41,299 nt of DNA, taken from NCBI GenBank assembly GCA_949474265.1, contig CASXBC010000008.1:1-41299 (forward strand), given 5' to 3'. This document shows, piece after piece, positions 9,822 through 15,688 of this stretch. The position numbers were made by a program, and so were the translations under genes. Position 1 is the first letter of the stretch. Every line of letters begins with the position of its first letter. Under the pieces are notes generated by a model, which worked only from the letters and a program-made list of their open reading frames with translations, did not search any database and was not told where the DNA came from. This DNA is from an uncultured bacterium (GTDB lineage: Bacteria; Bacillota; Clostridia; Christensenellales; UBA1242).

Positions 9822-10623
9822 ATGAAACTTATTTGTCTTGGTACAGGGCATGCTGGAATGATTAAAAATTACAACACCTGTTTTGTTTTGGAAAACGGGG
9901 GGGGATTTGCTTGTAGATGCGGGCGGAGGAAATCAAATCCTGGCGTTACTTGAGAAAGTAAATGTTGATATAAATGAGTTGGAATATGGTTTTGTGACTC
10001 ATTGCCACACTGACCATTTGCTTGGTTTTGTGTGGATTATGCGAATTGTTATGTATGGCTATGTTAAGAATGAGAGAACTAAACCTTTTACTATTTTCGC
10101 AAGCAGAGCTGTTTTGAATGCTTTGGAAGAGATTGTAAAGCTTACAATTGGAGAAAAACTTTGGAACAAAGTGGTTGGCGATAAGGTGTTTTTGAAAGAA
10201 GTTGTTGATGGTCAGCATGAGAGAATTTGTGGGATGGATTTTGAGTTTTTTGACACAATGGCTATCGAGAAAGATTTTCCTCAAATGGGCTTTTTTATAA
10301 AGGAGAAAGGTTTTGTTTTTGCTGGGGATGTCCCTCTGTCTGAACACTTATATCAAAAGTTTTCAAAGCAAAAGTGGCTTTGTTTGGAAGCTTTTTGTTT
10401 AGAAAAGAAAAGGTCAAACAATGAGGTTCCTTTGAAAAAACACAAAACGGTTATGGAAAGTGCTGTTGTTGCCGAAAAATTGAAAGCTGAAAATCTGATA
10501 TTATGGCATGGAGAAGATGATTTGGATGGGACAAGAAAAGAGCAATATTTGAATGAAGCAAAAAGATATTTTTCTGGTAAAATCTTTGCTCCAGATGACT
10601 TAGATATAATTGAGGGTTTGTAA
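9822..10623 (+). pseudogene. MBL-fold hydrolase, frameshifted at a G8 run
   Basis: The gene begins at ATG 9822 behind GGGGAGA and reads MKLICLGTGHAGM...FVLENG, a typical start of an RNase Z-like MBL protein. At eight consecutive G (9897-9904) the frame is lost and a stop follows within about 20 codons. With seven G the reading continues as ENGGDLLVDAGGGN into an intact remainder with HCHTDH, AGD and a C-terminal WHGEDD. The repaired product has 266 residues. A sequencing error, slipped-strand phase variation or a recent mutation are all possible. The rest of the frame is undamaged, which argues against an old pseudogene. Confidence 0.8.
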
Positions 10624-10636
10624 CCCTCTTTTTTTA
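10612..10636 (+). terminator. Terminator overlapping the MBL stop codon
   Basis: GAGGGTT and AACCCTC with a 3-base loop and a long T run. The TAA stop lies within the hairpin. Confidence 0.9.
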
Positions 10637-10696: not shown

Positions 10697-10726
10697 TTGA
10701 CATAAGGGGAATGATTGTTGTATACT
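10697..10726 (+). promoter_or_regulatory. Promoter of the pfl operon
   Basis: TTGACA at 10697-10702, spacer 18, TATACT at 10721-10726 preceded by TG. It stands 47 bases before pflA. Confidence 0.75.
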
Positions 10727-10772
10727 AAATTGCAATGCGTTTGAGACATTGATTTTTGGGAGAAAATGGGGG

Positions 10773-11498
10773 ATGCAAGGTTTTATTCATTCAACTGAAT
10801 CGCTTGGCACGGTTGACGGTCCTGGCATAAGATTTGTCATTTTTATGCAAGGTTGTCCGCTTAGGTGCAAATATTGTCACAACCCTGACTCTTGGAATAT
10901 CAATGGTGGAAAAGCATATCAGAGTGATGAAATTTTTGAGATAGCTATGAAATATAAAAATTATTTCATGAAAAATGGAGGAATCACTCTAACAGGCGGA
11001 GAGCCACTTCTTCAAATGGATTTTTGCATTGAACTTCTCAAAAAGTTTAAGGCTGCAGGTGTTCACACCGCTGTTGACACTTCTGGGTTTATGTTTGATA
11101 TTAAAAGAAATGAGTCTGTAGAAAAGCATTTGGAACTTATCAAATATACTGATTTGTTTTTGCTTGATATAAAACACATTTCGTCACTTAAACACAAAGA
11201 ACTTACCGGAGTGCCAAACGACAACACACTTGCTTTTGCAAAGTTTTTGAGTGAGCATAACAAGGCTATGTGGGTGCGTTATGTGCTTGTTCCAAACCTG
11301 ACTGACAGTGAAGAGGATTTGAAAGAACTTAGAAAGTTTTTGGATAATCTTAAAACTGTTGAGAAAGTGGAGGTTTTGCCTTACCATACAATGGGTGTGC
11401 CAAAATATAAAAAATTGGGAATAGATTATCCTCTTGCTAATGTTACGGCACCAAGCAAAGCACAGGTCGAGTTTGCAAAAAAAATTCTAACGAGGTAA
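10773..11498 (+). CDS. pflA: Pyruvate formate-lyase activating enzyme
   Basis: A 241-residue radical SAM enzyme that installs the glycyl radical on pyruvate formate-lyase. The cluster motif CPLRCKYC gives Cys28, Cys32 and Cys35, preceded by GTVDGPGIRFVIFMQG, which is diagnostic of PFL activases. The GGEPLLQ SAM-binding segment is also present. Length is normal for the family. The ATG at 10773 has GGGAGA nine bases upstream; the longer frame starts with an unsupported TTG. First gene of the operon pflA, thioredoxin-like, split pflB. Confidence 0.95.
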   Translation: MQGFIHSTESLGTVDGPGIRFVIFMQGCPLRCKYCHNPDSWNINGGKAYQSDEIFEIAMKYKNYFMKNGGITLTGGEPLLQMDFCIELLKKFKAAGVHTAVDTSGFMFDIKRNESVEKHLELIKYTDLFLLDIKHISSLKHKELTGVPNDNTLAFAKFLSEHNKAMWVRYVLVPNLTDSEEDLKELRKFLDNLKTVEKVEVLPYHTMGVPKYKKLGIDYPLANVTAPSKAQVEFAKKILTR

Positions 11499-11501
11499 AA
11501 A

Positions 11502-11828
11502 ATGAAATCACTTGAGCAGTTTAAAAAAGAACTTGATGGAATTTGTTTAATTGAAGTTTCAGGCGAATCTTGTGCAAATTGTTTTTCATTGCTTCCACTA
11601 GTTACAAAAATAGTGGCAAAGCGAGCTGATTGCAAATTTTTTCATATTGAAGCTGGGCATGACACTAAAGAGTTTTTGGAAGAATTTAAAATAGTGGAAG
11701 TTCCAACTCTTCTTGTGTGTTTGAATGGAGAAGAAAAAGCAAGATGCAAAGGTTTTGTGCCAGAAGAAATCCTTGAATTATGGATTGATGCAAAAGTTGA
11801 AGATTGTAAAAAACTTATAGGAGAATAG
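11502..11828 (+). CDS. Thioredoxin-like protein within the pfl operon
   Basis: A 108-residue thioredoxin-fold protein. The redox motif is CANC (Cys24, Cys27) in place of CGPC, and the cis-Pro element VPTLL lies near residue 68. It starts 3 bases after pflA with its SD (GAGG) overlapping the pflA end, and pflB begins 2 bases after its stop, so all three are co-translated. The family exchanges thiols or reduces disulfides. A role in keeping the PFL active-site cysteines or the activase cluster functional is my inference. It is not a canonical TrxA, given the CANC centre and lack of WCGPC. Confidence 0.8.
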
Positions 11829-11830
11829 AG

Positions 11831-13867
11831 ATGAACATGATGAAAGAATGGGAAGGATTTGTCCCAGGAAAATGGAGTAATGATGAAATTGATGTGAGAG
11901 ATTTCATACAAACAAACTATGCACCTTACACAGGTGATGATAGCTTTTTGGAAACTGCCACTGAAGACACTAAAAAGCTTTGGGAAAAGATTATGGAGCT
12001 TTCAAAAAGGGAGAGAGAAAATGGTGGAGTGCTTAATGCTGACACCAAGATTGTCTCACAAGTAAACAGTCATGAAGCTGGTTACATTGACAAAGATTTG
12101 GAAAAGATAGTTGGGCTTCAAACAGATGAGCCATTTAAACGTGCTCTTATGCCTTTTGGTGGTATTAAAATGGCAGAACAAGCTCTCAATATGTATGGTT
12201 ATCAACTTGACCCAACAGTTAAGGAATTTTTTGTTAAGTATAGAAAAACTCACAATGATGGTGTTTTTGATGCTTACACAGAAGAGATGAGACATGCAAG
12301 AACAGCTCACATTTTGACAGGACTTCCTGATACTTATGGAAGAGGTAGAATAATTGGCGACTATAGAAGAGTTGCTCTTTATGGTGTTGATTATCTTATC
12401 AAGAAGAAAGAAGAAGATAAAAGTTGTCTTGATGGTGAAATGGTAGACACTAAAATTAGAGACAGAGAAGAGCTTTCTGACCAAATAAAAGCTTTGAAAG
12501 CCCTTAAAGCAATGGCTGCAAAATATGGTTTTGATATTTCTAAACCTGCAAAAAATGCAAAAGAAGCTATCCAATTTTTGTATTTTGGATATTTGGCTGC
12601 TGTAAAAGACCAAAATGGTGCAGCTATGTCAATTGGAAGAAACTCAACATTTCTTGATATATTTATTGAGAGAGATTTGAAAAACGGAATTTTGACAGAA
12701 AAAGAAGCTCAAGAACTCATTGACCAATTTGTTATCAAACTTAGAATTGTTAAGTTTATGAGAATACAATCTTATAATGAACTCTTTTCTGGAGACCCTA
12801 CATGGGTGACAGAGTCTATTGGTGGAATGGGAGTTGATGGCAGAACTTTGGTGACAAAAAACTCATTTAGAGTACTTCACACTCTTGTCAACCTTGGACC
12901 TGCTCCAGAACCAAACCTCACTGTGCTTTGGTCAAAGCATTTGCCAGAAAACTTTAAGAAATTCTGTGCTAAGGTTTCTATTGACACTTCTTCAATTCAA
13001 TATGAATCAGATGATTTGATGAGACCTGAAATGGGTGATGACTATGCCATTGCATGTTGTGTTTCTTGCATGAGAGTTGGAAAAGATATGCAATTTTTCG
13101 GTGCAAGAGCAAACCTTGCAAAATGCTTGCTTTATGCAATCAATGGTGGTGTTGATGAGCTTACGCTTGACAAAGTGACAGGAAAGCCTCTTCAAGTTGG
13201 TCCAAAGTTTGCACCAATTCTTGGTGATGGAAAGCTTGAATACAATGATGTTTTGGATAAGTTTGACTCAATGATGACTTGGCTAGCAGGGCTTTATGTA
13301 AATGTGCTTAATCTAATTCACTATATGCACGACAAATATTCTTATGAAGCACTTGAAATGGCTCTTCATGATACAAAAGTAAGAAGATTTTTTGCAACAG
13401 GAATTGCTGGACTTTCTTGCTGTGTAGATTCGCTTTCTGCAATCAAATACGCAAATGTTTATCCAATCAGAAACGAGTTTGGAATTGTCTCAGATTATCG
13501 TATTGAAGGAGATTATCCAAAATATGGAAATAATGATGACAGAGCTGATGAAATCGCTGTTTGGCTTGTTAAGACTTTCATGAAAAAGATTGCAAGCCAT
13601 CACACTTATCGTGAGTCAGTGCCAACAATGTCAATTCTCACAATCACTTCAAATGTTGTTTATGGACAAAAGACAGGAAGCACTCCAGATGGAAGAAAAG
13701 CTGGGCAGGCTCTTGCACCAGGAGCAAATCCAATGCACGGAAGAGATAGTCATGGGGCACTTGCATCTCTTGAAAGTGTGAGAAAGTTGCCTTATGAATA
13801 TTCAAGAGATGGAATTTCAAACACATTCTCAATTACGCCAAATTCTTTGGGAAAAGATGAAGATTAA
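11831..13867 (+). CDS. pflB: Pyruvate formate-lyase core subunit lacking the glycyl-radical domain
   Basis: 678 residues matching the first nine tenths of formate C-acetyltransferase (pyruvate + CoA to acetyl-CoA + formate). The catalytic pair Cys409-Cys410 is in ACCVSCM, and GPAPEPNLT and TPDGRKAG...[10 protein letters not shown] are conserved. The protein ends at NSLGKDED, exactly where ordinary PFL continues into the glycyl-radical domain. That domain is the next gene, in the same frame, after TAA and a perfect AGGAGG. Together they total 757 residues, the normal PFL size. SD GGAG precedes the ATG at 11831. Confidence 0.93.
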
Positions 13868-13882
13868 AGGAGGAAAAGAAAA

Positions 13883-14122
13883 ATGGCTAGTAAAAATCAG
13901 GTTGACAATCTTGTAACAATGCTTGACACTTATTGCGGAGAAGGTGGGCATCATCTCAATGTCAATGTTTTTGACAGAGAGACACTTCTTGATGCTCAAA
14001 AACATCCAGAAAAATATCCACAACTCACAATTAGAGTGTCTGGTTATGCAGTAAATTTTAATAAGCTTACAAAACAACAACAAGATGAGGTTATTTCTCG
14101 TACTATTCACGAATCTATGTAA
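13883..14122 (+). CDS. Separate glycyl-radical subunit of pyruvate formate-lyase (GrcA-like)
   Basis: 79 residues equivalent to the PFL C-terminus. Gly54 in RVSGYAVNF is the radical-bearing glycine, preceded by GGHHLNVNV and HPEKYP as in full-length enzymes. It has its own strong SD (AAAGGAGG) eight bases before the ATG and lies 15 bases after the core subunit stop. In E. coli, GrcA/YfiD is a comparable free domain used as a spare part for damaged PFL. Here it must be the only radical source for the neighbouring core, because the core has none of its own. Confidence 0.92.

Positions 14123-14356: not shown

Positions 14357-15688
<1,332 letters not shown>

Follow-up and report, generated by a model that had tools for sequence, protein, structure and literature searches.

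A predicted two-polypeptide pyruvate formate-lyase encoded in one operon with its activase and a thioredoxin-like protein

Pyruvate formate-lyase (PFL), which is central to anaerobic fermentation, is vulnerable through an oxygen-sensitive radical carried on the chain of the catalytic core. Glycyl radical proteins encoded by phages act on host PFL. In E. coli, GrcA (YfiD), a separate glycyl-radical domain like the GrcA3 protein considered here, is activated by PflA and acts on the PFL core in trans, according to the accessible sections of two reports (PMC8683613, PMC12338860). The same sections of the first report describe an E. coli PFL cut at residue 695 (tPFL) that can be activated by YfiD/GrcA in vitro; in vitro, oxygen-cleaved PFL bound YfiD more strongly than tPFL (1-695) did and was activated to a greater extent, and the fraction of tPFL that was activated showed normal activity (PMC8683613). 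Those of the second describe a PflB-G734A strain of E. coli that makes formate when GrcA is present (PMC12338860). The general phenomenon of a PFL with a detached radical domain has already been catalogued, as NCBI gives the tail protein the name GrcA3 (NCBIfam NF038360) and its annotation of Collinsella aerofaciens has the pflB - grcA3 pair as well. Among the matches listed in a search of the open-access literature, none dealt with GrcA3 or with a PFL that is split in nature. What is new here is the repeated switching between fused and split forms, the link to a thioredoxin-like gene, referred to as trxL herein, and a look-alike of the radical domain.

The locus lies in the window, by which we mean the whole 41,299-nucleotide stretch of DNA that was analysed, and consists of four + strand genes in the order pflA - trxL - PFL core - grcA3. 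The activase gene pflA (10749-11498) scored 317.4 bits against TIGR02493 (cut-off 231.75); its listed start is TTG, with an internal ATG at 10773 as the alternative. It is followed by trxL (11502-11828), which encodes a 108-residue thioredoxin-like protein with a CxxC motif (GESCANC), by the gene for a 678-residue PFL core (11831-13867), and by grcA3 (13883-14122), which encodes a 79-residue glycyl-radical domain (PF01228, 7.5e-25). The next gene is an enolase (14375-15688). Ahead of the operon is a promoter-like TTGACA-18-TATACT (10697-10726, + strand), and just upstream of that is a terminator-like hairpin (10612-10628). In a consensus scan of the region, this site and one before enolase were the best two (11/12 matches each), weaker sites fell within genes and none fell in the core-tail gap, while the total of 14 sites was not above that of shuffled sequences (mean 11.6, sd 4.0). 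The core gene stops at a TAA (13865-13867), the ATG of the tail gene follows 15 nt after the end of the stop, and the two genes share one frame. Since the Shine-Dalgarno sequence of the tail gene, AAAGGAGG (13866-13873, + strand), lies 9 nt ahead of this ATG and shares bases with the core TAA, core and GrcA3 are probably translationally coupled. The original prediction that PFL is encoded here as two polypeptides was borne out by these two ORFs, the second with its own Shine-Dalgarno sequence, as was its claim that the core lacks the radical glycine, for no RVSGYA glycine was found in the core sequence.

Core and tail together make up one complete PFL by both HMM and PDB alignment. The core covered TIGR01255 model positions 1-664 of 744 (1087.8 bits versus a cut-off of 994.2), and the tail supplied positions 664-744. 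When aligned to E. coli PFL (PDB 1h16), core residue 677 fell on residue 678 and core Cys409/Cys410 on Cys418/Cys419, while tail residues 19-79 fell on 699-759, which places tail Gly54 at Gly734. The core therefore has the PFL barrel and the adjacent catalytic cysteines that define TIGR01255, and the RVSGYA domain is missing from its chain. The tail has the features of NF038360, a short free-standing glycyl-radical domain, at 79 residues and 160.9 bits (cut-off 158), and it also aligned to residues 68-127 of YfiD/GrcA (6owr), besides which a PDB search with the tail found no free GrcA3-type chain. The best PDB matches of the core were 38la_A (687 residues) and 38lb_A (739 residues), both named formate acetyltransferase. 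Like the window core, 38la_A ends right after SLGKED; 38lb_A runs about 50 residues further and was absent among the PDB matches of the radical domain. Both entries may therefore be natural split PFL cores.

As the core has no glycine of its own, the original prediction was that PFL activity would need assembly in trans, and it proposed looking for a second, full-length pflB in the same genome. A PF01228 search of this genome (97.8% complete) gave matches at two places only, the window locus and a 725-residue frame that is NrdD, and no second, full-length pflB was found, a result that supports assembly in trans. Because no full-length PFL was found in the genome, the best reading is that the operon encodes a working PFL of two polypeptides (pflA - trxL - pflB core - grcA3) that would be activated in trans, and on the sequence evidence we hold this to be very probable. 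PflA, whose gene is in the same operon as those of the core and GrcA3, would take hydrogen from Gly54 of the free 79-residue GrcA3, and GrcA3, the sole radical domain found, would activate the core in trans as in the E. coli precedents. Should oxygen meet the radical, only GrcA3 would be cut, and it could be replaced; a cheap replacement of the domain after oxygen damage, as first suggested for this locus, is plausible. The thioredoxin-like protein would probably keep the thiols of the open core reduced. As PFOR is also present in the genome, cut by a contig end, the cell need not depend on PFL.

The same arrangement was found well beyond the window. A search of 391 genomes of the class gave 23 best-scoring short GrcA3 ORFs, window included (21 above the NCBI cut-off and two just below), and in 22 of 22 others the upstream PFL core match ran to window residue 677 or 678; in some of them a small ORF stood between core and GrcA3. 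Homologues of this design can score under the curated NF038360 cut-off, L083 (154.5 bits) being an example. For the order, 396 genomes were covered, and the 18 new places with the highest scores plus two lower ones comprised 13 split and 7 fused loci. The best 80 named loci of a GTDB scan comprised 67 split, 4 fused and 9 whose fetched stretch has no core, some of these 9 being cut by contig ends; by record title, the split ones belong to Clostridia, Bacilli, Erysipelotrichia, Coriobacteriia, Spirochaetia and Melainabacteria, although most are from metagenome-assembled genomes (MAGs) and taxon labels may err. Five isolates carry the split, Collinsella aerofaciens MCC370, Olsenella uli An733, Lancefieldella rimae ATCC 49626, Ruminococcus albus KH2T6 and R. 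bicirculans 80/3; in all five the core ends at model position 665-670 and the tail is separate, and no full-length type-1 PFL was found in any of the five genomes. A predicted split PFL is, by these counts, widespread in anaerobes and common in gut anaerobes. For R. albus 7, a different strain from the KH2T6 isolate analysed here, the accessible part of a published study reports that PFL is highly expressed and is said to yield formate, and that formate was below the 1 mM detection limit (PMC6776011). For C. aerofaciens and R. bicirculans, no direct measurement of formate came to light in the accessible portions of the open-access literature.

The history of the split was followed on a core tree of 60 rows (LG+G4 without a mixture model), made after dropping 12 of the 72 rows of a quick tree under the same model, from which L113 and L122 (short) and L123 (no core) had been left out beforehand. 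One supported clade held every split row, and comprised 43 of the 60 rows, 34 split and 9 fused. Within the 60-row tree there were at least four changes between fused and split states, and 0 of 200 bootstrap trees had a single change; the quick tree gave five changes, four of them forced by supported branches. In fused relatives, exactly 7 residues led from LGK (or similar) to NL(V) in 23 of the 25 loci measured (of 26 fused loci tried, one did not fit the pattern; L157 and L227 probably come from the same genome). Since the fused members keep this 7-residue connector, we think that the fused state is ancestral and that splitting has recurred. The fused PFL of L241 (Lachnospiraceae MAG RGIG7104) has a 39-residue connector that includes an extension-like stretch and a GrcA3-like start, and looks like a re-fusion. 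Other state changes may reflect recombination with a fused allele.

Split loci of the window's own lineage (group I, with G466, G964 and others) have a core that ends like SLGKDED before its stop and the order pflA - trxL - core - tail. There, trxL lies between pflA and the core in 0 of the 5 fused operons that have upstream sequence but in 24 of 27 split ones: 12 of the first 15 split loci, 11 of 11 further named loci whose upstream part is present, and L254, which was counted as split with trxL and lies just outside the group I clade. The split loci without it are L144, L147 and L150. This count left out L166, L157 and L227, whose upstream part is missing; L034 and L039, both basal and fused, were not scored, and L177 and L187 are nearly identical. 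Fisher's test gave p 0.0003 with kinship ignored, while the tree offered 2 independent pairs if only supported branches are used (4 if all are) and a sign test p of 0.5. The association between trxL and the split is a lead that is suggestive only, and is not significant once kinship is allowed for. The protein matched PF00085 above the cut-off (5.5e-8), and its CxxC is conserved in homologues at the same operon place; as NCBIfam thioredoxin models stayed below their cut-off (34 versus 96.8), we class it as thioredoxin-like rather than as a classical TrxA. Across 14 genomes, homologues of at least 39% identity occurred only inside the operon (G668, G964, G901, G466), and the remaining matches were at 20-29%, apart from one in G220 at 36% (E 1.7e-8), which does not lie beside the fused PFL of that genome. 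Other trxL-type genes with GESCANC or similar were noted at L133:4175-4495 and L145:2964-3242. Four group I loci (L149, L151, L148 and L144) have long core-tail gaps of 72-311 nt that, by eye, seem to hold inverted repeats; such repeats may tune the tail:core ratio.

Most other split loci form group II, in which the usual order is core - tail - pflA and there is either a core extension, often C..GACS.PTLFEGLD, or a separate ORF of 60-90 residues, usually before the tail. The core C-termini of L094, L095, L102, L103, L104, L176 and L193 bear the GACxxPTLFEGLD-like motif directly. A pattern search that took in 103 loci, fused ones and both groups alike, found the separate ORF in 21. It is a look-alike of the radical domain: the start is GrcA3-like, a Cys-rich segment replaces the glycine loop, there is no RVSGYA, and many members end in ACxVPTLxxGLD. 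Examples are L207:3765-3968, L113:268-465 and L092:5988-6239. Twenty aligned look-alikes had two invariant cysteines in common, and their first 30 residues are homologous to the GrcA3 start (hhalign, 30 columns, E 1.4e-8). Five members scanned had nothing above the Pfam cut-off (the one weak match stood at 0.05) and their NCBIfam matches were all weak, one member searched against the PDB gave no meaningful match, and an AlphaFold2 model from the 20 sequences had a mean pLDDT of 59. In the window genome no look-alike was found, the sole match being the tail's own N-terminus. A more speculative extension of the two-subunit reading, which we put forward tentatively and consider rather doubtful, is that the radical domain would be an exchangeable subunit, repeatedly cut free and sometimes rejoined at one point, and that the vacant site of the split core would be guarded in one lineage by trxL and in the other by the Cys-rich extension or by the look-alike, which would plug the site until charged GrcA3 takes its place.

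The alternative that fares best is that the split works and brings no benefit, being a near-neutral rearrangement of the operon that drifts in and out, as in constructive neutral evolution. The four or more state switches on the tree are in keeping with such drift, as is the one apparent re-fusion with its 39-residue connector, and the benefit with respect to oxygen is itself a hypothesis. Against this, the cut falls at nearly the same point each time, one lineage has the thioredoxin-like neighbour, the other has the Cys-rich extension or the look-alike ORF, and there are extra GrcA3 copies, all of which suggest function and none of which proves it. We regard drift as unlikely on balance, with an appreciable chance of being right.

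A comparison within the genus bears on whether the split operon belongs to this genome and is maintained. Of 112 genus genomes searched, 81 had some match to the GrcA3 model, and only the window genome and G668 had a short free-standing ORF above 158 bits; in the other 79 the match was at most 125.9 bits and lay in longer or (by position) contig-cut frames. Most of the genus has a continuous PFL, or none was found. The window contig may be contamination in its genome (contamination 3.8%), but G668 (contamination 1%) carries the same operon followed by enolase, with 90.5% identity to the window in the core and 93.7% in the tail. This second genus genome also answers the proposal that related genomes be searched for the junction, since it has the same gene pair. 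The original prediction had named continuous proteins in close relatives as counting against it, and most same-genus PFLs found are indeed continuous, but those on the tree belong to a distant clade and the nearest homologue, that of G668, is split. On the tree, the window core is sister to that of G668 and groups with cores from other families of the order; as it lies far from the included continuous PFLs of the genus, horizontal transfer of the window PFL is likely. Enolase was found in 17 of 41 genus genomes, a patchiness that is odd for a glycolytic enzyme, and was for that reason not used as a native reference for this question. Between the window and G668, dN/dS (NG86) came to 0.048 (core), 0.033 (tail), 0.059 (trxL) and 0.082 (pflA). 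As these ratios are low and synonymous sites are near saturation, they indicate long, strong purifying selection on all parts of the operon.

GrcA3 might instead be a spare part of the E. coli kind for a full-length PFL encoded elsewhere, with the window core a relic, and this we consider improbable. Its NCBI name, autonomous glycyl radical cofactor, speaks for such a role, as do extra lone copies: of the 9 coreless GrcA3 loci among the best 80 named, 7 were traced to genomes, and 6 of these 7 (G1026-G1031) have a lone tail. Yet in those same 6 genomes PFL is itself split and has its own tail, no full-length PFL was found in the window genome or in the five named cultured strains, and the supposed relic is under purifying selection. 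GrcA/YfiD repairs a complete, oxygen-cleaved PFL, and no complete PFL was found in the window genome; a spare part for another PFL there was rejected, as the second PF01228 match is NrdD. The lone second GrcA3 genes were observed in the genomes of L184, L210, L231, L234, L237 and L240; in G1028 the front of the core is cut by a contig end, and G1026 has a split operon with trxL and an in-frame TAG. The seventh genome, G1032, has a core cut at the contig edge and a second tail that is a 31-residue fragment. That a single core should have two radical domains to draw on is in keeping with a replaceable part.

The junction itself bears on whether there are two separate products or one. Across 37 split loci (the window, L133, L092-L113 and L143-L155), the tail lay in relative frames 0/1/2 to the core in 11, 14 and 12 cases, core-tail gaps ran from -38 to 432 nt, and a Shine-Dalgarno sequence of at least 4 nt preceded the tail in 36. 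A single protein made by stop-codon readthrough or programmed frameshifting, with the separate ORF a by-product, would find some encouragement in the 11 in-frame loci, the window among them, and in the in-frame arrangement of G1026. However, frames this evenly mixed are evidence against readthrough, no frame relation is conserved across the junction, some gaps contain another ORF, and the read-through connector of the window would be 17 positions long (stop included) versus 7 in fused relatives; readthrough or frameshifting was rejected on the mixed frames and the overlong connector, and has very little chance of being correct. The same figures do not support the original claim that nothing but one TAA stands in the way of a normal 757-residue enzyme, and the in-frame TAA of the window looks like chance. 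Two further glycyl-radical matches with one in-frame TAG (G778:C52:4477-4698 and G124:C3:152235-152543) are possibly other splits or errors. The least credible explanation is that the locus is a pseudogene of a normal PFL, its split due to an error of sequencing or assembly or to a recent nonsense mutation. Although both window ORFs share one frame and 79 of the 81 matching genus genomes have a longer or contig-cut frame with a lower score, this explanation was rejected because independent genomes carry the split: G668 has it with a different, out-of-frame gap of 20 nt, dN/dS is 0.03-0.05 at a dS close to saturation, the tail starts at an ATG of its own behind a Shine-Dalgarno sequence, as in 36 of 37 split loci, and the split recurs in 22 of 22 other best class-level loci and 67 of 80 best named loci.

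If PFL does work as two subunits, its activation and repair would turn on how a 79-residue protein is supplied and docks, and the exit of the radical loop to the activase could be studied with two separate proteins. The occurrence of the split in cultured Collinsella, Ruminococcus and Lancefieldella would bear on formate production in the gut. The recurring single cut point and the two kinds of neighbour protein would provide natural comparisons beyond any designed construct.

Compared with the systems described at the outset, E. coli PflB is complete and is repaired by GrcA, whereas the window core has no radical domain. In YfiD the N-terminal half, about 60 residues, is disordered, according to the accessible sections of PMC8683613; the 79-residue tail is without this half. 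The NF038360 name, by which alone its meaning is judged here, implies a spare cofactor, whereas in the window genome GrcA3 is the only PFL radical domain found; and unlike the catalogued pflB - grcA3 pair, the pair in the window's lineage has pflA and a thioredoxin-like gene ahead of it. Phage glycyl radical proteins (T4-type and others) resemble the tail in being free radical domains, with matches in 1539 of 50,697 phage records and 64.9-78.4% identity to the tail among the 12 matches listed. The nearest experimental parallel to the proposed window core is E. coli tPFL (1-695), likewise a core without a radical domain that can be activated in trans in the sections of the report accessible (PMC8683613); tPFL is artificial, whereas the window cut is natural and falls about 17 residues earlier, at E. 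coli residue 678.
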